From: Acidimicrobiales bacterium
Lineage (GTDB): Bacteria > Actinomycetota > Acidimicrobiia > Acidimicrobiales > RAAP-2
Length of the DNA: 34,545 nt
NCBI GenBank assembly: GCA_017883135.1
Contig: JADGOE010000031.1
Location: forward strand, 1-34,545
Direction: 5' to 3'
Shown here: one piece after another, positions 160 through 10,960 of the stretch
Layout of the letters: every line of letters begins with the position of its first letter
Position numbering within the stretch: position 1 is the stretch's first letter
Notes under the pieces: model-generated
Databases searched by the model: none
The model's input: only the letters and a program-made list of their open reading frames with translations
Told to the model about the DNA's origin: nothing
Position numbers and translations under genes: made by a program

Positions 160-1719
160 TCAGCGCCACTCGTCCCGGGCCACCACGAGACCGGCGGATG
201 GAGTGAGCAGGTTGCCGGTCAGCGTCCGGTCGTCGTTGCGCATCCGCCACTGCAGCAGACGTTGGGCGCCATGCCACCCGTGCTCGCCCGCGTCGCCGGA
301 CCCCACCAGATCGTGCAGCTGCGAGGGGTCGGCGCCCAGGTCGAACAGCAAGGGCGGCAGCACCGCCGGGTCGGCGGCGAACTGGACGTACTTGTGCTCC
401 GCCCCCCGAACGACGTCGAGCGCGCAGTGGGCCATGGGAACCCCAAGGAACTTCTCCGCCGACTGCGTGGCCGGGTTGGAGAAGCTCCAACTCCAGTGGG
501 CCTCGGTGCGCCAGTGCTCAGGTGCCCCGTCGACCAGCGCGTCGTCGCCAGTCAGGAACGGTTGCAGGGCGAAGCCGTCGGCCTGCAACGGCGCCTCCAG
601 TCCCAGCCACCCGCAGATGGTGGGGAGAACATCCACCGATTCGGTGAATGACCGCACCACCCGACCACGGCCGGGATCGGCTCCGGCATCCGGATCGCGG
701 ATGATCAGGGGTACGTGGAACGACTCGTCCCAGTAACCAAGCTTCTCGAAGAGCCAGTGGTCACCGCCCATCTCGCCATGGTCACTGGTCAGCACCACCA
801 AGGTCGAGTCGACCAGACCCGAGGAGTCGAGGTAGTCGAAGAGCCGGGCCAGTTGGTCGTCGACCTCCCTCTGGGCGCCGTGGTAGGTCGCCCGCATCTG
901 CCGGCGCTCCCGCTCGTCCTCGGGTGCTCCCACGTGGGGCAGGTACATCAGTACCTGGTTGAGGCGGTGCAACGCCGCTTCCTCTGCCTTGGTCGACGCT
1001 GCGACGAAAGGCGGGAGCTCGTCGGCGTCATAGAGGTCGTGGTACCCGAGCGGGTTGCGGCGGGGTGGGTGGGGGCGGATGAACGAGGCGTGGACGAAGA
1101 ACGGCTGTTCCCCGTGCTGGTCGAGCCACGTCGTGAGCGCCTCCACCATGAAGGCGGACTCCGACTGCTCGGCGGCAAACCGGGCCGGCGCCCACGTCGA
1201 TCCGTGTCGATCGGCGCCGGGGAAGTCCGGCATCGGCCGGTAGAGGTCGTGGGGATTGGCCGGAACGTCGACCCCCTGCGCCGCCAGCCACCGGCCCCAC
1301 TGCCGGCTGCCGGCCTCCCAGGGCTCGTGGAGCACCGGGCGGAAACCTGGCAGCACCTCCTCATAGGAGCGCAGGCGCGGGTCTCCTTCGGGGAGCGTGC
1401 GCGGGTCGAGGCTGGTATCGGTGTACCCGAACAGCACCGGGTCGTAGCCGGCGTCGCGAGCCAGCAACGCCACATTGGTGAACCGGGCATCGAGTGGAGT
1501 GCCGTTGTTGATCGACTTGTTGTGATGCAGATAGGTGCCCGTATAGAGGCAGGCCCGAGACGGGCCGCACGGTGCGGCATTGGCCCAGTGGTTGGCGAAC
1601 AGCGTGCCCCGGGCGGCCAGCCGGTCGAGGGCGGGGGTGGTCAGCACCGGATGGCCCAGGGCGGAGAGGCTGTCGCCCCGCCACTGGTCGACAGTGATGA
1701 ACAGCACATTTCGGTTCAC
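160..1719 (-). CDS. Phosphonate monoester hydrolase / sulfatase family enzyme
   Basis: This 519-aa protein belongs to the alkaline-phosphatase superfamily and should hydrolyse sulfate or phosphonate/phosphate monoesters. The start VNRNVLFITVDQWRGD, the CGPSR motif with Cys51 (oxidised to formylglycine in active members) and the TSDHGE metal site near residue 330 match phosphonate monoester hydrolases and their arylsulfatase relatives; the length is typical. The GTG at 1719 was chosen because AAGGAGG lies 7-8 nt upstream; an open frame continues further upstream but has no such site and no similarity. There is no signal peptide, so the enzyme is probably cytoplasmic. It lies 96 bp after the YdcF-like gene on the same strand. 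The true substrate cannot be told from sequence. No formylglycine-generating enzyme is in the window. Confidence 0.9.
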   Translation of the reverse strand: MNRNVLFITVDQWRGDSLSALGHPVLTTPALDRLAARGTLFANHWANAAPCGPSRACLYTGTYLHHNKSINNGTPLDARFTNVALLARDAGYDPVLFGYTDTSLDPRTLPEGDPRLRSYEEVLPGFRPVLHEPWEAGSRQWGRWLAAQGVDVPANPHDLYRPMPDFPGADRHGSTWAPARFAAEQSESAFMVEALTTWLDQHGEQPFFVHASFIRPHPPRRNPLGYHDLYDADELPPFVAASTKAEEAALHRLNQVLMYLPHVGAPEDERERRQMRATYHGAQREVDDQLARLFDYLDSSGLVDSTLVVLTSDHGEMGGDHWLFEKLGYWDESFHVPLIIRDPDAGADPGRGRVVRSFTESVDVLPTICGWLGLEAPLQADGFALQPFLTGDDALVDGAPEHWRTEAHWSWSFSNPATQSAEKFLGVPMAHCALDVVRGAEHKYVQFAADPAVLPPLLFDLGADPSQLHDLVGSGDAGEHGWHGAQRLLQWRMRNDDRTLTGNLLTPSAGLVVARDEWR

Positions 1720-1815
1720 CGGCGTTCCTCCTTCGATGGGTCGACCCCTGCATTCGTCATCTGGGTGGTGGGTCCTCTGCCGTGATCGAGCGGGGCACCG
1801 CAACCAGGTGGCACC

Positions 1816-2506: not shown

Positions 2507-4003
2507 TCAAGACGGGCGCTCCCCACCGGCGGTGGCTCCGATGCGGCCGAGCGCAGTCCGGACCCGGGCCAGGGTCCGTTCCGGCCCGAGTACCTCCAGC
2601 GCCTCGAACAGCGGGGGGCCCACCCGGCGGCCGGTGACCGCCACCCGGATCGGGGCCTGAGCTTTGCCCAGCTTGCGCCCCACGCGCTCGCCGACGGCAG
2701 AGGTGGCGGCATGGAGGGCATCGCGGCTCCAACGGTCGGTGAGCTCGGAGAAGGTCGCAAGGGCGTCTGCCAGGATGGTCCCGGCCACCTCGTCGCCGGC
2801 GATGGCCTTGGCCCACGAGTCCTCGTCGATGTTCGGCTCGTCGAGGAAGATGAAATCGACCATGTGGGGTACCTCGCTGAGGATGGCCACCCGCTCTTGT
2901 ACCAGCGGCGCCAGCTTGGCGAACGCCGCCTCGTCGAAGTTCGTGACCAGCCACGGTGCGCGGTCGCCGGTCAACCACGGTTGGCACGCCTCGATGAACG
3001 CACCGAGCGGCAGGGCCCGGATGTACTCGCCGTTCATGTGGGTGAGCTTGGCGACGTCGAAGAACGCAGGCGAGTGGTTGACGTCCTCCAAGCGGAACCA
3101 CTCCGCCATCTGACCGATGGTGAAGATCTCGTCCTCACCCGGTGGGCTCCATCCGAGCAGACCGAGGTAGTTGACGAATGCACCGGGGAGGTAGCCCTTG
3201 TCCCGATAGGACTCGACCGCCACCGGGTCCCTGCGCTTGGACAGCTTCTTGCGTTGCTCGTTGACCAGCATGGGCAGATGGGCGAAGACGGGAAGGCCCG
3301 GCGCCAGCTGGCGGCCCGCACCGGTCGAACCATCGGTCATCCACCCGAGGGAGAGGAGGGCCTCCCACGCCAGGACGCCCTTCGGCGTGGTCGGCAGCAG
3401 GTCCTCGCCCCGGATGACGTGGGTGATGGCCATGTCGATGTCGTCGACCACATTGGCCAGCACGAACAACGGAGCGCCGTTGGCCTTCACCGCCACGAAG
3501 TCGTCCATCGCCGAGCACGGGAAGTCGACTCTGCCCCGGATCACATCGTCGACAGTGGTGATCCCCTCGTCCGGCGTGCGGAACCGCAAGGCCCTCCCGT
3601 CACCCCGAGGCAGGTCCCGGTCCCGGCAGAAGTTGTCGTAGCCGGGGGTGAGGATCCCGGCTTCCTTGTTGCGGAGGTCCACCCCGTCGTGGGTGCAGTC
3701 GCACGCGTAGAGGAACCCGCCCTCCCACAGGGCATCGATGGCCTGATGGTACCGATCGGTACGCAGCGACTGTCGGTACGGTCCCTCGTCGGGGTCCATC
3801 GACAGCCAGTGCATGGCCGAGATGATCCCGTCCACCCACTCCTCGCGATTGCGCTCGGCATCGGTGTCTTCGATGCGCAGTACGAAGGTGCCCCCCGACT
3901 GGCGCGCCACCAGCCAGTTGTACAGCGCTGTGCGCGCACTCCCGACGTGGAAATAGCCGGTCGGCGACGGGGCGAAACGGACCCTCGGGGCGTCCCCGGG
4001 CAC
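2507..4003 (-). CDS. gltX: Glutamyl-tRNA synthetase
   Basis: This 498-aa class I aminoacyl-tRNA synthetase charges tRNA-Glu in the cytoplasm. The class I signatures are both visible: FAPSPTGYFHVGSARTAL (HIGH-type motif, His19) and KLSKR at residues 253-257 (KMSKS-type loop). LRIEDTD and VIRGEDLL are typical GluRS sequences and the length is normal. The GTG start at 4003 lies 7 nt beyond the ferredoxin stop, so expression probably relies on the ferredoxin mRNA. The C-terminal anticodon-binding part looks complete. Many actinobacterial GluRS enzymes are non-discriminating and also charge tRNA-Gln; this cannot be decided here. Confidence 0.97.
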   Translation of the reverse strand: MPGDAPRVRFAPSPTGYFHVGSARTALYNWLVARQSGGTFVLRIEDTDAERNREEWVDGIISAMHWLSMDPDEGPYRQSLRTDRYHQAIDALWEGGFLYACDCTHDGVDLRNKEAGILTPGYDNFCRDRDLPRGDGRALRFRTPDEGITTVDDVIRGRVDFPCSAMDDFVAVKANGAPLFVLANVVDDIDMAITHVIRGEDLLPTTPKGVLAWEALLSLGWMTDGSTGAGRQLAPGLPVFAHLPMLVNEQRKKLSKRRDPVAVESYRDKGYLPGAFVNYLGLLGWSPPGEDEIFTIGQMAEWFRLEDVNHSPAFFDVAKLTHMNGEYIRALPLGAFIEACQPWLTGDRAPWLVTNFDEAAFAKLAPLVQERVAILSEVPHMVDFIFLDEPNIDEDSWAKAIAGDEVAGTILADALATFSELTDRWSRDALHAATSAVGERVGRKLGKAQAPIRVAVTGRRVGPPLFEALEVLGPERTLARVRTALGRIGATAGGERPS

Positions 4004-4010
4004 TCGTTGG

Positions 4011-4208
4011 TTACTCGTCTTCGACGATGGTGATGGCGCCGGTCGGGCAGCCGTTGGCAGCTTGGCGGACCTTTTCGCGCAATTCCTCGCCGGGTCGTTC
4101 GTTCAACAGGTAGAGGTATCCGTCGTCCCGCACCTCGAACACCTCTGGGGCAATCCCCATGCAGACGGCGTTGCTGGCACATTCGTCGAAGTCGACAACA
4201 ATCTTCAT
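4011..4208 (-). CDS. Small [3Fe-4S]-type ferredoxin
   Basis: A 65-aa soluble electron carrier. The cluster ligands are Cys10, Cys16 and Cys54 (followed by Pro), with Asn13 where a [4Fe-4S] ferredoxin would have its second cysteine. This C-x2-X-x2-C...CP arrangement is characteristic of single-cluster [3Fe-4S] ferredoxins, often partners of cytochrome P450s in actinobacteria. The ATG at 4208 has GGAGG six bases upstream, so longer in-frame starts are discarded. It is the first gene of a probable ferredoxin-gltX-ydcF unit. No P450 or ferredoxin reductase is in the window, so its redox partner is unknown. Confidence 0.95.
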   Translation of the reverse strand: MKIVVDFDECASNAVCMGIAPEVFEVRDDGYLYLLNERPGEELREKVRQAANGCPTGAITIVEDE

Positions 4209-4429: not shown

Positions 4430-5713
4430 ATGGCCACACTCTCTCCCCTTCCGGCACCGGTCCGCACACACCGGCGTCCCACCCGGACGGCGCTCGGCAC
4501 CGTTCTGGTCGGGGCCTTCTCCCTGCTGGCCGCGGCCTGTTCATCGGGCGGCACGAGCTCCACCGCGACCATCGCAGCCTCCCCGACCACCGCAGCCTCC
4601 CCGGCCGGCACGGCGGCCAGCCCGACCACCTCGCCATCGAGCCTGCCGGGCATCCGCCACGTCTTCCTCATCGTGCTGGAGAACGAGGGCTACGACGCCA
4701 CCTTCGCCACCCCGTCGGCCGACCCGTACCTGGCCAGCAAACTCCCGGCGGCGGGTGCGCTGTTGACCAACTACTACGGGATCGGGCACCTCTCCAACGA
4801 CAACTACATCGCGCTGATCTCCGGGCAGGCACCCAATCCCCTCAACCAGGCCGACTGTCCGGTCTTCGCCAACTTCCCTCGTTCCGCCACGGTGGCCGCC
4901 AACGGCCAGATCTCCGATTCGGGCTGTGTCTTCCCCACCACCGTCACCACCGTGGCCGACCAACTCACCCAGGCCCACCTCACCTGGAAGGGCTACATGG
5001 AGGACATGGGCAACGTCCCCTCCCGTGAGTCCCCGGTGTGCGGCCATCCGGTGGTTGGATCACCCGACCTCACCGAACGGGCGGCCCCCGGCGACGGGTA
5101 CGCCACCCGCCACGACCCGTTCGTCTACTTCCACGCCATCATCGACAACAAGACGCTGTGCGACACCCACGTCGTCCCGCTCGGAACCGCCGCCGGCGCT
5201 CTCCCCGCCGGAACTCCCGCCGGCACCGCCGGGTTGGCCACCGACCTCAGGTCGATCGCCACCACACCCAACTTCAGCTTCGTGACCCCGAACCTCTGCA
5301 ATGACGGCCACGACGCCTCGTGCGTCAACCAGCCGGCCTCGTCCTCGGCCCTGGGCAACGTGGACTCCTTCCTCAAGACCTGGGTGCCGCTGATCACCAA
5401 TTCGCCGGCATTCAAGAAGGACGGACTGCTCGAGATCACCTTCGACGAGGCCGATTCGGCAAGTGCCGCCTCGTGCTGCAACCAGGTGCCCGGTCCGGCT
5501 TCGGCCCTTCCGGGGATCACCGGGCCGGGAGGAGGCCGCGTCGGGACGGTCCTCATCTCTCCCTTCGTGAAGGCTGGCACCATCAGCGGTGTGCCCTACA
5601 ACCACTACTCCACCCTGGCCACCGTCGAGGACCTCTTCGGACTGACCAAGTTGGGCCAGGCCAAGACCGTCAGCGCCACCTTCGGCGCGGACGTGTTCTC
5701 CACCTCAGGGTAA
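4430..5713 (+). CDS. Secreted phosphoesterase / acid phosphatase lipoprotein
   Basis: A 427-aa predicted lipoprotein. The signal segment ALGTVLVGAFSLLAAACSS gives a candidate lipidated Cys37 (the -3 position is Ala, a slightly relaxed lipobox), followed by a Thr/Ala/Ser/Pro-rich linker to about residue 75. The catalytic domain resembles the phosphoesterase family of bacterial acid phosphatases and phospholipase C (PF04185): HVFLIVLENEGYD at the start, HLSNDNYIALISG, ITFDEAD, and the C-terminal PYNHYSTLATVEDLFGL. It probably releases phosphate from organic esters outside the membrane. The ATG at 4430 is preferred because it sits directly before the signal peptide; frame continuing upstream looks non-coding. 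It is divergent from the ferredoxin operon and convergent with the small gene at 5768. Confidence 0.87.
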   Translation: MATLSPLPAPVRTHRRPTRTALGTVLVGAFSLLAAACSSGGTSSTATIAASPTTAASPAGTAASPTTSPSSLPGIRHVFLIVLENEGYDATFATPSADPYLASKLPAAGALLTNYYGIGHLSNDNYIALISGQAPNPLNQADCPVFANFPRSATVAANGQISDSGCVFPTTVTTVADQLTQAHLTWKGYMEDMGNVPSRESPVCGHPVVGSPDLTERAAPGDGYATRHDPFVYFHAIIDNKTLCDTHVVPLGTAAGALPAGTPAGTAGLATDLRSIATTPNFSFVTPNLCNDGHDASCVNQPASSSALGNVDSFLKTWVPLITNSPAFKKDGLLEITFDEADSASAASCCNQVPGPASALPGITGPGGGRVGTVLISPFVKAGTISGVPYNHYSTLATVEDLFGLTKLGQAKTVSATFGADVFSTSG

Positions 5714-5767: not shown

Positions 5768-6046
5768 CTACCCGCGCCGCTGTTTCCACTCGGTCAGACC
5801 GTCACTGATCAATTGGGGCAACAGCCGGCGCTGGTCCGGGTCGCGGTACCCCCGGGCGCGCTGGCGGAGCGACTCGCGGGCAGCTTCGACGGCCGGTCCA
5901 CCCATGGCCATCTCCTCCAGAACATGCTCACGCGGGATGTTCACTTCGGCCGTGATCGACGGGTCCCACGCCTCCGCCAATGCCGCCACCTCACCCGGAA
6001 GCTCCTCGAACCCGTTGGTGCGGGCCATGATGATGGTCTTGCGCAT
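5768..6046 (-). CDS. Small hypothetical protein at the end of the thiolase operon
   Basis: A 92-aa acidic, probably helical protein of no family I recognise (MRKTIIMARTNGFEELPGEV...). It starts 52 nt after the stop of the thiolase homologue on the same strand and may belong to that operon. The ATG at 6046 lacks a clear Shine-Dalgarno site; the ATG at 6028 (MARTNGF) is an alternative giving 86 aa. No membrane segment, cysteine cluster or signal peptide is visible. The frame also runs open upstream into the thiolase gene, but that part is only its shadow. Real-gene status is likely but not certain. Confidence 0.55.
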   Translation of the reverse strand: MRKTIIMARTNGFEELPGEVAALAEAWDPSITAEVNIPREHVLEEMAMGGPAVEAARESLRQRARGYRDPDQRRLLPQLISDGLTEWKQRRG

Positions 6047-6098
6047 GGGTGGGAGTGAGGCAACGGGCCGCCCGCCTCGGTCCGGGGCCGGTCCACCG

Positions 6099-7253
6099 CT
6101 ACGGCTTGTCGCTACCGACCACCCACATGGAGAAGAACTGGGATCCACCGCCGTACGCCTGACCGAGCGCGACCCTGGCCCCTTCGATCTGGTGCTCGCC
6201 GGCCTGGCCGCGCACCTGCATCGCCACCTCGAGGAAGCGGAGCATGCCAGATGCGCCGATCGGGTTGGAGGACAGCACACCTCCCGATGTGTTCCACGGG
6301 ATGTCCCCGTCGAAGGCGGTGGCCCCCGACTCGGTCAGTTTCCACCCGTCGCCCAGGTCGCAGAACCCGAGGTTCTCCAGCCACATCGGCTCGTACCAGC
6401 TGAATGGCACGTACACCTCGGCCACGTCGATCTGCCGACGCGGATCGGTGATGCCGGCCTGGGCGTAGACGTCGGCCGAGCAGTCGCGTCCGGCCCGGGG
6501 GTTGACCTGGTCGCGGCCCGCGAACATGGTCGGCTCGGACCGCATGGCCATTCCGTGGACCCATGCCGGCGGGAAGTGCCCGGATACGGCATCCTCGGCA
6601 GACAGCACCATCGCCGCCGCCCCGTCGGAGGACGGGCACGCCTCGAGATAGCGCAGCGGGTCCCACAGCATCATCGACTCCTCGACCATCTTCATGTCGA
6701 TGTCGGCGATGTGGAGGTGGGCGTACGGATTGCGCATGGCATTGCGCCGGTCCTTCACCGCCACCATCCGGCCGATGTACTCGGGCGCGCCCGAGCGCCG
6801 CATGTAGGCGCGGATGTGGGGTGCGAAGTAGCCGCCCGCCCCCGCCAGCAACGGGGCGGCGAAGGGCTGGGGTACGGACAGCGCCCACATGGCGTCCGAG
6901 TCGGACTGCTTCTCGTAGGCCACGGTCAGCACCCGCTTGTGGATCCCCGAGGAGATCAGGTGGGCTGCCACCAGTGCGGTCGACCCTCCCACCGAACCGG
7001 CGGTATGCACCCGGAACATGGGCTTGCCGACCGCGCCGAGTGCCGGGGCCAGGTACAGCTCGGGCATCATGTTCCCCTCGAACATGTCCGGGGCCTTGCC
7101 GATGACCACTGCGTCGATGTCCGTCCAGGTGAGGTCGGCGTCGGCCAACGCCATCTTGGCCGCTTCCCGCACGAGGCCGGCGATGGACACGTCGTTCCGC
7201 TTGGACTTGTGGTGGGTCTGCCCCACGCCGATGACTGCACAACGCTCTGCCAT
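6099..7253 (-). CDS. SCP2-type thiolase homologue (lipid-transfer protein / Ltp2-like)
   Basis: About 384 aa with the full thiolase fold length. It begins AERCAVIGVGQTHH. The usual nucleophilic cysteine is absent: the aligned segment reads VHTAGSVGGST with Gly at the Cys position. The usual GHP histidine motif reads SSNPIGASG, and the C-terminal CxG motif reads QAYGGGSQ, with Tyr instead of Cys. This pattern fits SCP2-thiolase-like proteins such as actinobacterial Ltp2, which act as retro-aldolases on CoA thioesters of steroid side chains together with a DUF35 partner, rather than true thiolases. The ATG at 7253 overlaps the upstream TGA by 1 nt (TGATG); GTG at 7256 is also possible. The substrate is inferred only from family and context. 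Confidence 0.88.
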   Translation of the reverse strand: MAERCAVIGVGQTHHKSKRNDVSIAGLVREAAKMALADADLTWTDIDAVVIGKAPDMFEGNMMPELYLAPALGAVGKPMFRVHTAGSVGGSTALVAAHLISSGIHKRVLTVAYEKQSDSDAMWALSVPQPFAAPLLAGAGGYFAPHIRAYMRRSGAPEYIGRMVAVKDRRNAMRNPYAHLHIADIDMKMVEESMMLWDPLRYLEACPSSDGAAAMVLSAEDAVSGHFPPAWVHGMAMRSEPTMFAGRDQVNPRAGRDCSADVYAQAGITDPRRQIDVAEVYVPFSWYEPMWLENLGFCDLGDGWKLTESGATAFDGDIPWNTSGGVLSSNPIGASGMLRFLEVAMQVRGQAGEHQIEGARVALGQAYGGGSQFFSMWVVGSDKP

Positions 7254-8341
7254 CACTCACCCTCCAGGACGCATACGAGATTCTGTTGGAGGCAGGGCCC
7301 CGAAGTGGCGTGGGCCACCGCCCGCCGGGCCTGCCCCGACGAGATGCGGCTGGCGGCCTCGCCGATCCGGATCAGCCCCGCCGACATGATCGGGTTGGCC
7401 GCCAACGCACCTCCCGACGGGTTGATGGCCACGGTGTCATCGAGGCCGAGGGCCTCTACGAGGATGATCTCCTGGTGGGCGAAGGGGGCGTGGATCTCAG
7501 CAATGTCGACCGGGCCGTCCGAGAGGCCCGCGCGCTGTGCGGCCATGGCCGTCGACGACGAGGAGGTCAGGTCGCGGGCCCCGAGCGAGTGGGTCTCGAT
7601 CCGGTGGTCGAAGCCGGTGATCCACGCCGGGCTCTTCGACCACCTGCGGGCCTTGTCGCCGGCGGCCAGCACGATGGCGGCCACACCGTCGGTGATCGGG
7701 GGCAGCGCGTGGCGGCGGAGCGGCGACACGACGTACTCGTCCTCCAGCAACGTTTGGGCCGGGGTGTCGTTGGCCACCTGGGCGTTGGGGTTGGAAAGGG
7801 CATCCCTGCGGCTGCGGGAGGCGATGGCGGCGAAGTCCTCTTCGGTGGCCTTCCCCGCGTCGATGAGGGCCCGGGCCTGCAGTGCGGCCAGGCTGACCGG
7901 ATCGGGCCACAGCGGGGCCACATAGTAGGGATCGAGCTGCAGAGCGAGGATCTCGTTGAGGTTGCCCGGCGACGACCGGCCGAAGCAGTAGACCAAGGCG
8001 GCGTCGATCTCCCCTTCCTGAAGGAGGACCCATGCCTCGTAGAGGGCCCAGGCCCCGTCCATCTCCACGTGGCTCTCGGGTTTCGGGGGCCACACCCCCA
8101 CTGCGTCGAGCGCGGTCACGAAGCTGAACGGGCCGCCGATCAGGTAGTCGGAGGATCCCGAGCATATGAAGTCGACGTCGTCCTTGGTGATACCGATGGC
8201 GCCGAAGACCTCGGCCACCACCGGCATGAGCATCTCGACCTCGTTGTGCTCGTCATCGCGGCGCACGTTGTGCGCCTGCGCGAACGAGGCAACCGACACC
8301 GGGCGATTGGTCCGGCCGGCAGCAGAAGCAGCGGCGCTCAC
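7253..8341 (-). CDS. Second SCP2-type thiolase homologue
   Basis: A 362-aa thiolase-fold protein. Its N-terminal half is divergent; where the nucleophilic cysteine should be it reads VEMDGAWAL. The C-terminal half keeps the recognisable NPSGGALAANPIMSAG loop (Asn in place of the GHP His) and GPCLQQN, which preserves a cysteine at the C-terminal motif. It is therefore not an ordinary acetyl-CoA acetyltransferase and may be the non-identical partner subunit of the next gene product. The GTG start at 8341 overlaps the upstream stop by 4 nt (GTGA), and its own TGA overlaps the next start, so the four genes are translationally coupled. A joint complex with the two OB-fold proteins is an inference. 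Confidence 0.85.
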   Translation of the reverse strand: MSAAASAAGRTNRPVSVASFAQAHNVRRDDEHNEVEMLMPVVAEVFGAIGITKDDVDFICSGSSDYLIGGPFSFVTALDAVGVWPPKPESHVEMDGAWALYEAWVLLQEGEIDAALVYCFGRSSPGNLNEILALQLDPYYVAPLWPDPVSLAALQARALIDAGKATEEDFAAIASRSRRDALSNPNAQVANDTPAQTLLEDEYVVSPLRRHALPPITDGVAAIVLAAGDKARRWSKSPAWITGFDHRIETHSLGARDLTSSSSTAMAAQRAGLSDGPVDIAEIHAPFAHQEIILVEALGLDDTVAINPSGGALAANPIMSAGLIRIGEAASRISSGQARRAVAHATSGPCLQQNLVCVLEGE

Positions 8342-8850
8342 AGGTACTCCTTGTAGGTCTCGTAATCGGCATCGGGCTCACCGTTGGGCCGGAAGTACCT
8401 GACCGACTCCAGCGACGGGGTCAGTTGGTCCGGTTCCACCCAGACCGCCTCGACCCGCATGCCCATCCTGATCTGGTCCGCAGGGATCTCTTGGATGAGG
8501 CCCATGAACGAGATGTTGGCTCCGTCGAGCAGCACCTGGGCGCAGATGTAGGGGATCTCGATGGACTGGCCGGCAAAGGGCACATTGACCACGCAGTAGG
8601 TGGTGACGGTACCTACGTTGGCCAGGGCCACGTCCTCGGTGGTGGGCACGCCGTCGGTGGGGCACGAACCGCGCGAGGGCACGTAGACCTTCCCGCACGT
8701 CGGGCAGCGCTGACCCATGAACTTGCCCTGCTCGAGCCCCCGCAGGAAGCGCGACTGGGCCACCCCCGGGGTGAACTCGAAATCGAGCCGGATCGGAGTG
8801 GCCAACGTGGTGACCGGGCCGAGATCCTCGGTGGTGGTCGGATCGGCCAT
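8338..8850 (-). CDS. DUF35 OB-fold protein with zinc ribbon
   Basis: A 170-aa protein with a rubredoxin-like zinc ribbon followed by an OB-fold domain (DUF35/DUF35_N), the type that binds acyl-CoA and docks on SCP2-type thiolases. The ribbon ligands are Cys49, Cys52 and Cys63; the usual fourth cysteine is Asp66 (CPTD). The OB domain runs from about VGTVTTYCVVNVPFAG to the end. The ATG at 8850 overlaps the stop of the upstream OB-fold gene by 1 nt (TGATG), which decides the start. It would supply the substrate-binding subunit for one or both of the following thiolase homologues. Confidence 0.9.
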   Translation of the reverse strand: MADPTTTEDLGPVTTLATPIRLDFEFTPGVAQSRFLRGLEQGKFMGQRCPTCGKVYVPSRGSCPTDGVPTTEDVALANVGTVTTYCVVNVPFAGQSIEIPYICAQVLLDGANISFMGLIQEIPADQIRMGMRVEAVWVEPDQLTPSLESVRYFRPNGEPDADYETYKEYL

Positions 8851-9308
8851 CAGGCTGCGCCTCCCTCGGGTACGAAGGCCTCGATGTCGGCCATGGCCCC
8901 GATCCGCTCCGCCGCCGGGCGGAAGCGCACCGTGACCCGGTCGCCGGTGGCCAGCTCGTCCGGTCCACCGGAGTCGACGGCATGGAGCAGCGCTGTGTCG
9001 GCTCCGTCGAGACGCACCAATGCCCAGGCGAACGGCGTGGTCAACGGGTGCTTGGGCAGTGGGTGGGACACCCAGGCCCACGACTCGACCACGCCGCCGG
9101 GTCCCACATCCACCATGTCGCCGGTGTCGTCGCCGGTGGTCGGGTCGTACTCGGTGGGTGGCACGATCACCGAGCCGTTCGACCCCTTCACCCCGAGCAG
9201 CCTGCCGTCCCGCAGGCCGGTCAGGAACGCACCGATGACCGGTCCCACCGATCGCGAATACGGGTATTCGAGGCGGTGACTGGCGTGCAGCGCTTCGCTA
9301 TCGGGCAT
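8850..9308 (-). CDS. OB-fold DUF35-like protein lacking zinc ligands
   Basis: A 152-aa protein, first gene of the operon. It aligns in layout with DUF35 proteins: an N-terminal helix (SVGPVIGAFLTGLRDGRLLG), then a segment GVKGSNGSVIVPPTEYDP where the zinc ribbon should be, then an OB domain (SWAWVSHPLPKHPLTTPFAWALVRLDG). No cysteine is present, so no zinc site is possible. The ATG at 9308 is preceded by a very strong GGGGGAGG six bases upstream. Together with the zinc-bearing paralogue it suggests two different OB subunits for two different thiolase-fold subunits. Function otherwise unknown. Confidence 0.85.
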   Translation of the reverse strand: MPDSEALHASHRLEYPYSRSVGPVIGAFLTGLRDGRLLGVKGSNGSVIVPPTEYDPTTGDDTGDMVDVGPGGVVESWAWVSHPLPKHPLTTPFAWALVRLDGADTALLHAVDSGGPDELATGDRVTVRFRPAAERIGAMADIEAFVPEGGAA

Positions 9309-9333
9309 TCCGTACCTCCCCCTGGCAACTCGA

Positions 9334-9346
9334 CGGACGACGTCCG
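9334..9346. repeat. 13-bp inverted repeat beside the operator
   Basis: CGGACG-A-CGTCCG, perfect arms with a one-base centre. It sits between the larger palindrome and the ribosome-binding site of the minus-strand operon, so it could be a second protein site or part of the 5' untranslated region. Confidence 0.5.
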
Positions 9347-9347
9347 A

Positions 9348-9371
9348 AAAAGTAGAACACATTTCACTTTT
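9348..9371. promoter_or_regulatory. 24-bp palindrome, candidate TetR/KstR-type operator
   Basis: The arms are AAAAGTAGAA and TTTCACTTTT around CACA; 8 of 10 arm positions pair. Its core, TAGAACACATTTCA (9353-9366), fits the KstR consensus TnnAACnnGTTnnA with a single mismatch (A for G). On the minus strand TACTTT (9354-9349) inside it can serve as the -10 element of the thiolase operon, so a bound repressor would block transcription. The site lies about 60 bp before the divergent sulfatase gene. KstR is the TetR-family repressor of sterol catabolism in mycobacteria. No such regulator gene is in the window. Confidence 0.5.
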
Positions 9372-9416
9372 GAGCGCCAACGGGCCCGCCAGGACGTTCC
9401 ACAACGACGACGACGC

Positions 9417-9422
9417 TACCGT
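9417..9422 (+). promoter_or_regulatory. -10 element of leaderless sulfatase gene
   Basis: TACCGT lies 8 nt before the ATG at 9431, and the start has no Shine-Dalgarno site, which indicates leaderless transcription. The same TACCGT occurs before the MFS gene at 18159. Confidence 0.5.
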
Positions 9423-9430
9423 GGCGGGCC

Positions 9431-10960
9431 ATGGTCCCGCCCGCTGCCGATCGCCCCAACATCTTGATGATCGTCTCCGACCAGGAGCGGCAGCGCTCCT
9501 GGCTCCCCCCGGGCATCACTTTGCCCTGGCGTGACCGGCTCCGGGCCGAGGGTCTCGAGTTCACCCGGTACTTCACCCACACCTCGCCGTGCTCCCCCAG
9601 CCGGGCCAGCCTGTTCACCGGGCGCTACCTCGCCGGCCACGGCGTGGTCGACAACGTGATCATGCCCGAGCACCACGAGCTCCCCACCTCGACCCCGACC
9701 ATCGGATCGTTGCTCGACGGAGTCGGCTACCGCTCGTCCTACATCGGGAAGTGGCATCTGTCGCACTCCCCGACACCGGACATGGATGCGTACGGCTTCG
9801 CCGACTGGGACGGCAATGACCGGCACTTCATGGGATGGGCCGGCACCGGCGTCCACTTCGACCCGATCATCGCCGGCAACGCCGCCCACTGGCTGACCGA
9901 GAACGCCGTACCGGCGGCCGCCGGCACCGCCACAAAACCTTGGTTCCTCACCGTCGCCCTGGTCAACCCTCACGATGTGATGTGGTTCCCGATCGACCAG
10001 CCCGGTTACCGCGAAGGGCACCCCGACGACGTGGCAGCCATCCGCTCGCTGCTCGAGTCCGCCGCATGGAAGGACGGCGACCCCCTCCCCGTCTTCACCG
10101 ACTCCTACCCCGAGGTGGTCGAACAGCTCCCGGCCAACTTCACCGACGACCTCCACACCAAACCCGAGGCCCACCGGCAGTGGCGGTGGGACCAGCAGCA
10201 CGGACTATGGGGCTACATCGACCCCGCCGACAAGAAGTCGTGGCTCCGCCACCTCGACTACTACGTGCACCTCCACGAGATGGCGGATCGCAATCTGGGT
10301 ACCGTGCTCAGCGCGCTGGAGGCCTCGGGCGCATGGGACGACACCGTCATCATCTTCACCTCCGACCACGGCGACATGTGCGGTTCGCACGGGCTCCGCT
10401 CCAAGGGCCCGTTCGTCTACGACGAGATCATGCGGGTGCCGCTCTACGTGAAGGTCCCCGGGGTCACCTCGCCGGGCTCGGTGACCGCCTCGCTGGGGTC
10501 CCACGTCGACCTGGCCGCCACCATCTGCTCGTTGGCCGGCGTCGACTCCGCCACGACGGAGGCAACGGTGCAGGGCGCGGATCTCTCGGCGGTGTTCGCC
10601 GATCCCACCACGACCGTGCGCGACCACATCCTGTTCGCCCAGGACTCGGCTCAGACCACCGCATTGAACAACGTCCGCTACGCCCTGCGCGGTTTCTTCG
10701 ACGGCCGGACCAAGTACGCCCGGTATTACGGCGTCGGCGGCGGCAAACCGTCGACCGGGCTGTGGGGCAGGTCGCCTGGAAACAAGCTGTTCGACGTCGA
10801 CTGCGCGTTCGACGACAACGACCACGAGTGGTACGACCACGACAGCGACCCGGACGAGTTGGTCAACCTGGCCAATGACCGGTCGCGTCGGATGGAGGTC
10901 CGCGACGTCTACGAGCGGATGCGGGCCTACGAACAGGAGTCGTTCGTCACCTTCGGGTAG
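9431..10960 (+). CDS. Sulfatase (formylglycine-dependent)
   Basis: A 509-aa sulfatase. The CSPSR motif places the catalytic cysteine at residue 54 (FTHTSPCSPSRASLFTGRY). SDQ at 16-18 and FTSDHGDMCGSHG near 313-325 provide metal ligands, and YIGKWHLS is the conserved lysine/histidine segment. No signal peptide is visible, so it probably acts in the cytoplasm on an imported sulfate ester. It starts without a leader 122 bp from the divergent thiolase/DUF35 operon and shares its palindrome region, suggesting that removal of a sulfate group and CoA-dependent side-chain cleavage serve one pathway. That link is inference. The gene ends 11 bp before the convergent phosphatase gene. Confidence 0.93.
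   Translation: MVPPAADRPNILMIVSDQERQRSWLPPGITLPWRDRLRAEGLEFTRYFTHTSPCSPSRASLFTGRYLAGHGVVDNVIMPEHHELPTSTPTIGSLLDGVGYRSSYIGKWHLSHSPTPDMDAYGFADWDGNDRHFMGWAGTGVHFDPIIAGNAAHWLTENAVPAAAGTATKPWFLTVALVNPHDVMWFPIDQPGYREGHPDDVAAIRSLLESAAWKDGDPLPVFTDSYPEVVEQLPANFTDDLHTKPEAHRQWRWDQQHGLWGYIDPADKKSWLRHLDYYVHLHEMADRNLGTVLSALEASGAWDDTVIIFTSDHGDMCGSHGLRSKGPFVYDEIMRVPLYVKVPGVTSPGSVTASLGSHVDLAATICSLAGVDSATTEATVQGADLSAVFADPTTTVRDHILFAQDSAQTTALNNVRYALRGFFDGRTKYARYYGVGGGKPSTGLWGRSPGNKLFDVDCAFDDNDHEWYDHDSDPDELVNLANDRSRRMEVRDVYERMRAYEQESFVTFG

Follow-up and report, generated by a model that had tools for sequence, protein, structure and literature searches.

A probable Ltp3-Ltp4 sterol side-chain operon with a putative KstR-like site in an uncultured Acidimicrobiales bacterium, and its divergent sulfatase neighbor

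When a bacterial operon encodes two thiolase-like proteins devoid of the catalytic cysteine together with two small DUF35 proteins, and a sulfatase gene faces it across a palindrome, two questions arise: which reaction do the operon products carry out, and do the two transcription units belong to one pathway? Such an arrangement occurs on contig JADGOE010000031.1 of the Acidimicrobiales bacterium assembly GCA_017883135.1, and the whole stretch analyzed here, positions 1 to 34,545 of its forward strand, will be called the window. An earlier note on this DNA read the four genes as a doubled Ltp2-DUF35 aldolase system, coupled by the sulfatase to the use of a sulfated lipid. Our analysis points instead to an Ltp3-Ltp4-(DUF35)2 operon of the kind with which actinobacteria degrade sterol side chains, with a KstR-like TetR protein as its regulator, an assignment that we consider quite probable on the strength of sequence comparisons. 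It is drawn from NCBIfam cut-offs, the context of a Rhodococcus cluster, pathway genes in the host's own genome, KstR-like sites, co-occurrence with an IpdA homologue, and the published role of these proteins. Family membership, the conserved operon, the operator, the set of KstR-like sites and the side-chain genes elsewhere in the genome were computed, while the complex and its chemistry are what we infer from them. The elements on which the argument turns are the following:

8850..9308, minus strand: DUF35b, first gene of the operon, an OB fold with no zinc ribbon (PF01796, E 7e-12).
8338..8850, minus strand: DUF35a, second gene, with a zinc ribbon (PF12172) and an OB fold (PF01796), both above cut-off.
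7253..8341, minus strand: Ltp4-like thiolase-fold protein (P0002), with a GTG start and the motif HAPF where YDHF is expected.
6099..7253, minus strand: Ltp3-like thiolase-fold protein (P0001), with the motif YVPF, which holds Tyr281.
9353..9366, minus strand: predicted core of a KstR-like operator, TGAAATGTGTTCTA, between DUF35b and the sulfatase.
9431..10960, plus strand: type I sulfatase (PF00884, E 5e-43; motif CSPSR), the divergent neighbor.

The operon reads DUF35b-DUF35a-ltp4-ltp3, with the genes overlapping as TGATG, GTGA and TGATG, and in this respect, as in the gene boundaries, the description given by the earlier note is accurate. Pfam likewise agrees with its view of two OB-fold proteins, one with a zinc ribbon and one without, since OB_ChsH2_C is found in both small proteins and zf-ChsH2 in DUF35a alone; the two larger proteins have thiolase-like domains. 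The ribbon ligands of DUF35a are Cys, Cys, Cys and Asp (CPTC...CPTD), with Asp in the fourth position.

The two larger proteins fall into distinct and named families. P0001 scores 680 bits against NF006180/PRK08313, whose cut-off is 514, and P0002 scores 545 bits against NF005924/PRK07937, whose cut-off is 419. Homologues from Rhodococcus sp. OK519 (L141), 65% identical for Ltp3 and 60% for Ltp4, belong to the same two families, and within 10 kb their cluster contains EchA19 and FadA5 equivalogs, a PRK07798 FadD19-type ligase, CYP125 (638 bits to the CYP125 structure) and an IpdA-type coenzyme A (CoA)-transferase. Here and below, the PRK07798-type ligase is taken to be FadD19, and the original ltp3/ltp4 work is reportedly that of Wilbrink in 2012. 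The published Ltp3 and Ltp4 are placed in NF006180 and NF005924 by gene order and context, not by direct comparison. In the literature, Ltp3-Ltp4 is proposed to be a heteromeric aldol-lyase acting on C24-branched sterol side chains, a complex whose chemistry is called less characterized (PMC6678751), ltp3 and ltp4 of Nocardioides simplex are phytosterol-induced aldol lyases with predicted KstR sites (PMC7807495), and Rv3522 and Rv3523 are ltp4 and ltp3, respectively (PMC6429209).

To see how far this arrangement extends, it is necessary to describe the samples. The family set comprises 150 genomes, 38 of which carry an Ltp4 orthologue and are termed operon-bearing; an Ltp4 match served to pick the 37 family loci and the 80 named loci, and the two sets share some genomes. 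The named loci are the best 80 of at least 581 confirmed, some of them with short flanks, and include Acidimicrobiales metagenome-assembled genomes (MAGs), many Streptomyces, one Rhodococcus, and some Deltaproteobacteria and Myxococcota. All co-occurrence counts were taken with no correction for kinship, and Fisher values are not used as probabilities. The genome of the window (G000) is itself a draft with a completeness of 98%.

Homologues of Ltp3, Ltp4 and DUF35a are present in 80/80 named loci, and DUF35b in 79 at E 1e-10 or in all 80 at E 1e-3. One or two DUF35 genes stand directly ahead of ltp4-ltp3 in each of the 37 family loci, with DUF35a found in all of them. The tandem DUF35 is fused in 43 of the 80 named loci and split in 36, with one locus left unassigned. 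In a Streptomyces fusion (L129), the first half is an OB-only domain and the second contains zinc ribbon and OB, and because this is the same domain order, DUF35b corresponds to the N-terminal half of the fused protein and DUF35a to its C-terminal half. The two DUF35 genes thus match one tandem gene and do not represent a doubled Ltp2-DUF35 pair. Moreover, the two thiolase-like proteins reach 129 and 37 bits against NF005892 (Ltp2), whose cut-off is 469 and for which the host's own Ltp2 scores 684; with both this cut-off and the YDHF motif missed, a doubled Ltp2 system is ruled out, and the claim of the earlier note gives way to an Ltp3/Ltp4 pair with one split tandem DUF35 gene. A ligase and a hydratase that fall in the same sequence clusters as those of L141 are present in 37 and 28 of the 80 named loci, respectively, and in Streptomyces they often lie just ahead of the DUF35 gene. 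Judged from family membership and context, the operon can be added with good support to the Ltp3/Ltp4 type known from Rhodococcus and Mycobacterium. Seven of the family loci (L059-L064 and L071) are paralogous operons, included among the 37, that have the same four-gene order, an Ltp4 identity of 45-56%, and no operator.

Regarding catalysis, the thiolase folds lacking the catalytic cysteine, on which the earlier note insisted, are borne out by models that match thiolase folds and by an alignment with Ltp2, in which neither Ltp3 nor Ltp4 has the nucleophile at the aligned position, so that neither is a canonical thiolase. The Ltp4 model (pLDDT 89.7) superimposes on Ltp2 6ok1 with Z 36.9 and a root-mean-square deviation of 2.5 over 333 residues, and the Ltp3 model (pLDDT 80) with Z 40.5 and a deviation of 3.1 over 356 residues. 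Archaeal thiolases, PhlC and BbsB score above Ltp2 as fold matches, and the fold therefore does not separate aldolase from thiolase chemistry. This ranking is what speaks for an ordinary thiolase, a PhlABC-like Friedel-Crafts acyltransferase, or a BbsAB-type benzoylsuccinyl-CoA thiolase, but the missing nucleophile already contradicts these options, the BbsAB cut-offs are missed (NF053628 for BbsB, 111 against 750; NF053627, 20.5 against 250), and the operator is shared with genes of a catabolic type; we regard all three as highly improbable.

What the alignment does retain is part of the aldolase machinery. According to PMC12329534, TcLtp2 uses Tyr294 of YDHF as the base and Tyr344 as the acid, and CtSal uses Tyr302 and Cys304 of YDCY. 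When aligned with the Ltp2 of the host, the YDHF position reads YVPF (Tyr281) in Ltp3 and HAPF in Ltp4. All 26 aligned Ltp3 sequences have Tyr281, and the His of HAPF occurs in at least 90% of 41 Ltp4 sequences; among 15 aligned sequences, the paralogous L060 and L061 have Phe at the tyrosine position of Ltp3. Because Ltp3, and not Ltp4, keeps the aldolase tyrosine, Ltp3 is predicted to be the catalytic chain, with Ltp4 as its putative structural or degenerate partner. The proposed mechanism would be as follows: Ltp3 and Ltp4 would assemble into a heteromer of thiolase-fold chains, with one DUF35 domain bound to each; a CoA-activated and hydrated C24-alkyl branched side chain would undergo retro-aldol cleavage in this complex; Tyr281 of Ltp3 would be the base that takes the proton of the beta-hydroxyl, like Tyr294 of Ltp2; and Ltp4 would be mainly structural or pocket-shaping. 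The divergent sulfatase would be a lineage-specific neighbor with at most a doubtful part in the pathway.

The regulatory side of the assignment begins with an imperfect palindrome between DUF35b and the sulfatase, the arms of which, AAAAGT and ACTTTT, lie at 9348-9353 and 9366-9371. Its core TGAAATGTGTTCTA is one change away from the KstR motif TnnAACnnGTTnnA of M. tuberculosis given in PMC1995591, where a site between Rv3520c and Rv3521 is listed, and is thus of the KstR type. In the window, the core precedes DUF35b by 44 bp and the ATG of the sulfatase by 64 bp. The pattern TRRAAYSTGTTCTA, which was derived from the window site and related sites, has a single occurrence in the window when up to one mismatch is allowed, versus 0.01 expected, an after-the-fact figure. 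With the same tolerance and within 400 bp upstream of DUF35b, a site is present in 27 of the 36 family loci whose flank is long enough, as well as in 32 of the 80 named loci, and over 2.1 Mb of partly redundant sequence 95 sites were counted versus 3 of the reversed pattern. The palindrome is hence a putative KstR-like operator, and the earlier note, which had placed such a site here, is supported in this, in that the site is one base from TnnAACnnGTTnnA and recurs upstream of DUF35b. A sigma-70 promoter scan of 9200-9520 gave no match.

The host genome contains eight near-exact sites versus one for the control. Seven of these precede sterol- or lipid-type genes, the operon of the window included, and the eighth is internal to a gene for a histidine phosphatase; the other six stand ahead of a FadA5 equivalog, an EchA19-type hydratase, a FadD19-type ligase, a cytochrome P450, an acyl-CoA dehydrogenase/thiolase pair and an acyl-CoA ligase/short-chain dehydrogenase/reductase (SDR) pair. 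As for their location, the sites are dispersed over contigs C106, C31, C43 and C50 (L183-L186), with three of them within 7 kb on C106 and single ones elsewhere ahead of the FadD19-type ligase, the P450 and the acyl-CoA dehydrogenase/thiolase pair.

The same genome encodes much of a side-chain pathway: FadA5 scores 675 bits (cut-off 515), a PRK07799 hydratase 409 (cut-off 316), and the PRK07798 ligase 741 (cut-off 543). An Ltp2 orthologue on another contig (606 bits to 6OK1) lies beside a ChsH2-type protein, acyl-CoA dehydrogenases and a P450. A CoA-transferase with the Pfam domain CoA_trans is 61% identical to the IpdA-type protein of L125, and its nearest solved chains are 6con, 6co6 and 6coj, which reach 342 bits where the next group has 78. 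These chains bear the name CoA-transferase alpha subunit and are taken here to be IpdAB; the label IpdA is used on this footing, since at E 1e-20 none of the NCBIfam models gave the protein a name. IpdA-type proteins occur in 35 of the 38 operon-bearing genomes and in 6 of the 112 others, so that, over the 150 genomes, 35 have both this protein and Ltp4, three Ltp4 alone, six the IpdA type alone, and 106 neither.

Several observations weigh against an operon for sterol side chains under KstR-like control. The second catalytic tyrosine, Tyr344 of Ltp2, is absent from both Ltp3 and Ltp4 in the alignment. The operator has AAT where the published motif has AAC, a site is lacking upstream of DUF35b in 9 of 36 family and 48 of 80 named loci, and no Streptomyces is found among the 32 named loci that carry it. 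The KstR-like TetR protein of the host (G000:C90:38114-38671) matches NF033703 with 157 bits (E 4e-46) and misses the cut-off of 280, and the stretches scanned around the host Ltp2 locus (L169) and near the KstR-like gene (L190) contain no KstR-like site. Against the EchA19 equivalog model, the host reaches 365 bits and falls short of the cut-off of 400. Finally, neither KshA_C nor a KshA-type query from L092 finds a match in the host genome, which leaves full 9,10-seco ring degradation unsupported and allows for a substrate other than a sterol.

This last gap deserves a closer look. KshA_C exceeds the Pfam cut-off in 20 of the 150 family genomes, with E <1e-20 in nine and partial or weak matches in the others; all nine are operon-bearing, leaving 29 of the 38 with no clear KshA, although L092 and L125 have a KshA that the model picks up. 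The search for ring degradation covered KshA and the IpdA type. The gap fits an operon acting on the CoA-activated branched side chain of another isoprenoid, such as a hopanoid or a plant triterpenoid. Against this, the Ltp2 orthologue, the FadA5 equivalog, the KstR-like sites and the IpdA-type protein are all markers of steroid pathways, and the genome is a draft; a non-sterol substrate of this kind seems to us unlikely. For the host, side-chain catabolism is well supported and ring opening is not supported.

The remaining question concerns the sulfatase. As the earlier note had stated, it faces the operon divergently and has no leader: the PF00884 domain is confirmed, and the N-terminus, judged by eye, is not signal-like, making the enzyme cytosolic by sequence. 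PF00884 and the CxPSR motif, retained in 17 of 17 copies examined, mark it as a type I sulfatase. It reaches no NCBIfam cut-off (the best is choline-sulfatase, 127 against 433), and steryl-sulfatase structures are only weak relatives among 85 matched sequences. With regard to maturation, FGE (PF03781) has no match in the host genome, while an anSME-type maturase is present at C100:5451-6560 (469 bits, cut-off 349); the lack of FGE is therefore no argument against the sulfatase. Over the 14 same-genus genomes, PF03781 exceeds 200 bits in G042 and G067 only, most others having weaker or partial matches, and anSME is above its cut-off in seven, never together with an FGE above 200 bits.

A functional coupling, in which the cytosolic enzyme would desulfate imported sterol sulfates and the shared operator would switch both functions together, has several observations in its favor. 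Besides the intact motif and the maturase, sulfatase orthologues (at least 70% identity) are found in 18 of the 150 family genomes, all of them operon-bearing (18/38 versus 0/112 others), and the gene adjoins the operon in 16 of these 18, the exceptions being G036, with its copy at a contig end, and G041, with its copy elsewhere. The earlier note would have been undermined by homologues never found beside a sulfatase in relatives, and this adjacency in 16 of 150 genomes answers that point in its favor. The operator is, moreover, close enough to the sulfatase start in the window for an effect.

Other observations speak against coupling. In the 16 loci with the sulfatase, the spacing between operator and DUF35b is 44-47 bp in 15 and 78 bp in L048, whereas that between operator and sulfatase varies from 47 to 207 bp and is once 1018 bp; these distances use starts extrapolated from alignments in related loci. 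An orthologue was not found in 20 of the 38 operon-bearing genomes, and it is lacking in the same-genus G031, G050 and G082, of which only G031 (L069) shows the full flank, with the operator retained; in G050 and G082 the contig ends at the operon, and G082 has a completeness of 69%. In G041, the sulfatase gene that lies away from the operon (L172, G041:C122, 70%) has no KstR-like site with up to two mismatches in 19 kb, and the operon of this genome likewise lacks the site. The sulfatase is present in 6 of the 80 named loci, all from MAGs titled Acidimicrobiaceae, Acidimicrobiales or Actinomycetes, and the host genome has numerous sulfatase-like stretches, with eight matches. Among the flanking genes of the 37 family loci, the sulfatase is found 13 times, a PNPOx-like gene 14 times and an SDR gene (>70% identity) 13 times, and because these unrelated genes show nearly the same distribution, shared descent of the neighborhood is the simplest reading of how the sulfatase is distributed. 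Among the search results listed, no literature report joined a sterol sulfatase with KstR or with bacterial steroid degradation.

On balance, we consider the coupling quite unlikely, and the sulfatase is probably a lineage-specific, incidental neighbor. The sulfated-lipid pathway of the earlier note, which tied the sulfatase to side-chain cleavage, thus lacks support, given the near-fixed distance of the operator to DUF35b only, the 20 of 38 genomes with no orthologue and the 6 of 80 named loci. What survives of its overall interpretation is a CoA-dependent, retro-aldolase-type steroid side-chain system with a KstR-like site; the doubling of Ltp2, the coupling and a proposed fifth component, discussed below, do not. 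A broader picture may also be drawn, in which KstR-like-controlled catabolism would cover the sterol side chain and the C and D rings without KshA, by another ring opening or on a non-classical sterol-like substrate, and one lineage would have recruited the cytosolic sulfatase to a place beside the operator to feed in sulfated substrates; we regard this as unlikely.

Further features of the window lie downstream of ltp3:

5768..6046, minus strand: open reading frame (ORF) of 92 amino acids, its membership in the operon unsupported.
4430..5713, plus strand: phosphoesterase (PF04185).
4011..4208, minus strand: small single-cluster ferredoxin (Fer4_13/Fer4_15).
2507..4003: glutamyl-tRNA synthetase (gltX), a conserved downstream housekeeping neighbor.
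160..1803, minus strand: second sulfatase (PF00884, motif CGPSR).

The 92-amino-acid ORF was the possible fifth component, a role that does not hold: it has no family match and no match beside ltp3 in relatives, and its sole clear homologues are in L073, about 7 kb from ltp3, and in L072, about 9 kb away and cut by the end of the locus. Frequent genes downstream of ltp3 are the ferredoxin, gltX and a DUF218 gene. The ferredoxin gives a tblastn match (E 1e-8) in 10 of the 37 family loci and is directly behind ltp3 in L046, L053, L067, L026 and L034; in the window, the phosphoesterase gene and the 92-amino-acid ORF intervene. The second sulfatase is about 8 kb from the first, and sequence clustering groups it with genes in L039 and L040.

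Taken together, an Ltp3-Ltp4 assignment puts a checkable reading in the place of a sulfated-sterol pathway that had been derived from gene adjacency. It extends the Ltp3/Ltp4 module and its set of KstR-like sites to uncultured Acidimicrobiales, with record titles that mention bog, palsa and Chersky; the nearest named relatives of the host are Acidimicrobiales MAGs from soil. It also offers a catalytic proposal for a less characterized complex, with the tyrosine-bearing Ltp3 as the putative active chain and Ltp4 as its partner, and the split DUF35 genes would make a four-chain complex convenient for expression and dissection.

It remains to compare the locus with known systems. With the type I sulfatases (PF00884), the divergent enzyme shares the domain and CxPSR, and it differs in being cytosolic by sequence and below all NCBIfam cut-offs. 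The Sal-Shy bile-acid aldolase (9MYR) has in common with the operon the thiolase fold, the DUF35 partner and the base tyrosine, whereas the operon lacks the catalytic Cys of YDCY and the hydratase fusion, and its ribbon is Cys3Asp in place of the Cys3His1 of Shy. Ltp2-ChsH2 (6OK1) likewise shares the thiolase fold and the DUF35 partner, and the base tyrosine of Ltp3 occupies the same alignment position; here, however, there is no MaoC-type hydratase domain in the operon, YVPF and HAPF replace YDHF, the second tyrosine is missing, and the thiolase-like chains are two and distinct. The closest likeness is with the Ltp3-Ltp4 systems that include the DUF35 gene Rv3521 or its equivalents (ltp3/ltp4 of R. 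rhodochrous DSM 43269; Rv3521-Rv3523), and the DUF35-ltp4-ltp3 order of the window recurs in Rhodococcus OK519. With OK519 the window shares both thiolase-like families and a KstR-type site ahead of the DUF35 gene, but DUF35 is split here and fused in OK519 and in most Streptomyces loci. Compared with the known Ltp3-Ltp4 systems, the operon of the window is set apart by an operator with AAT, by pathway genes dispersed across contigs, and by its divergent sulfatase.

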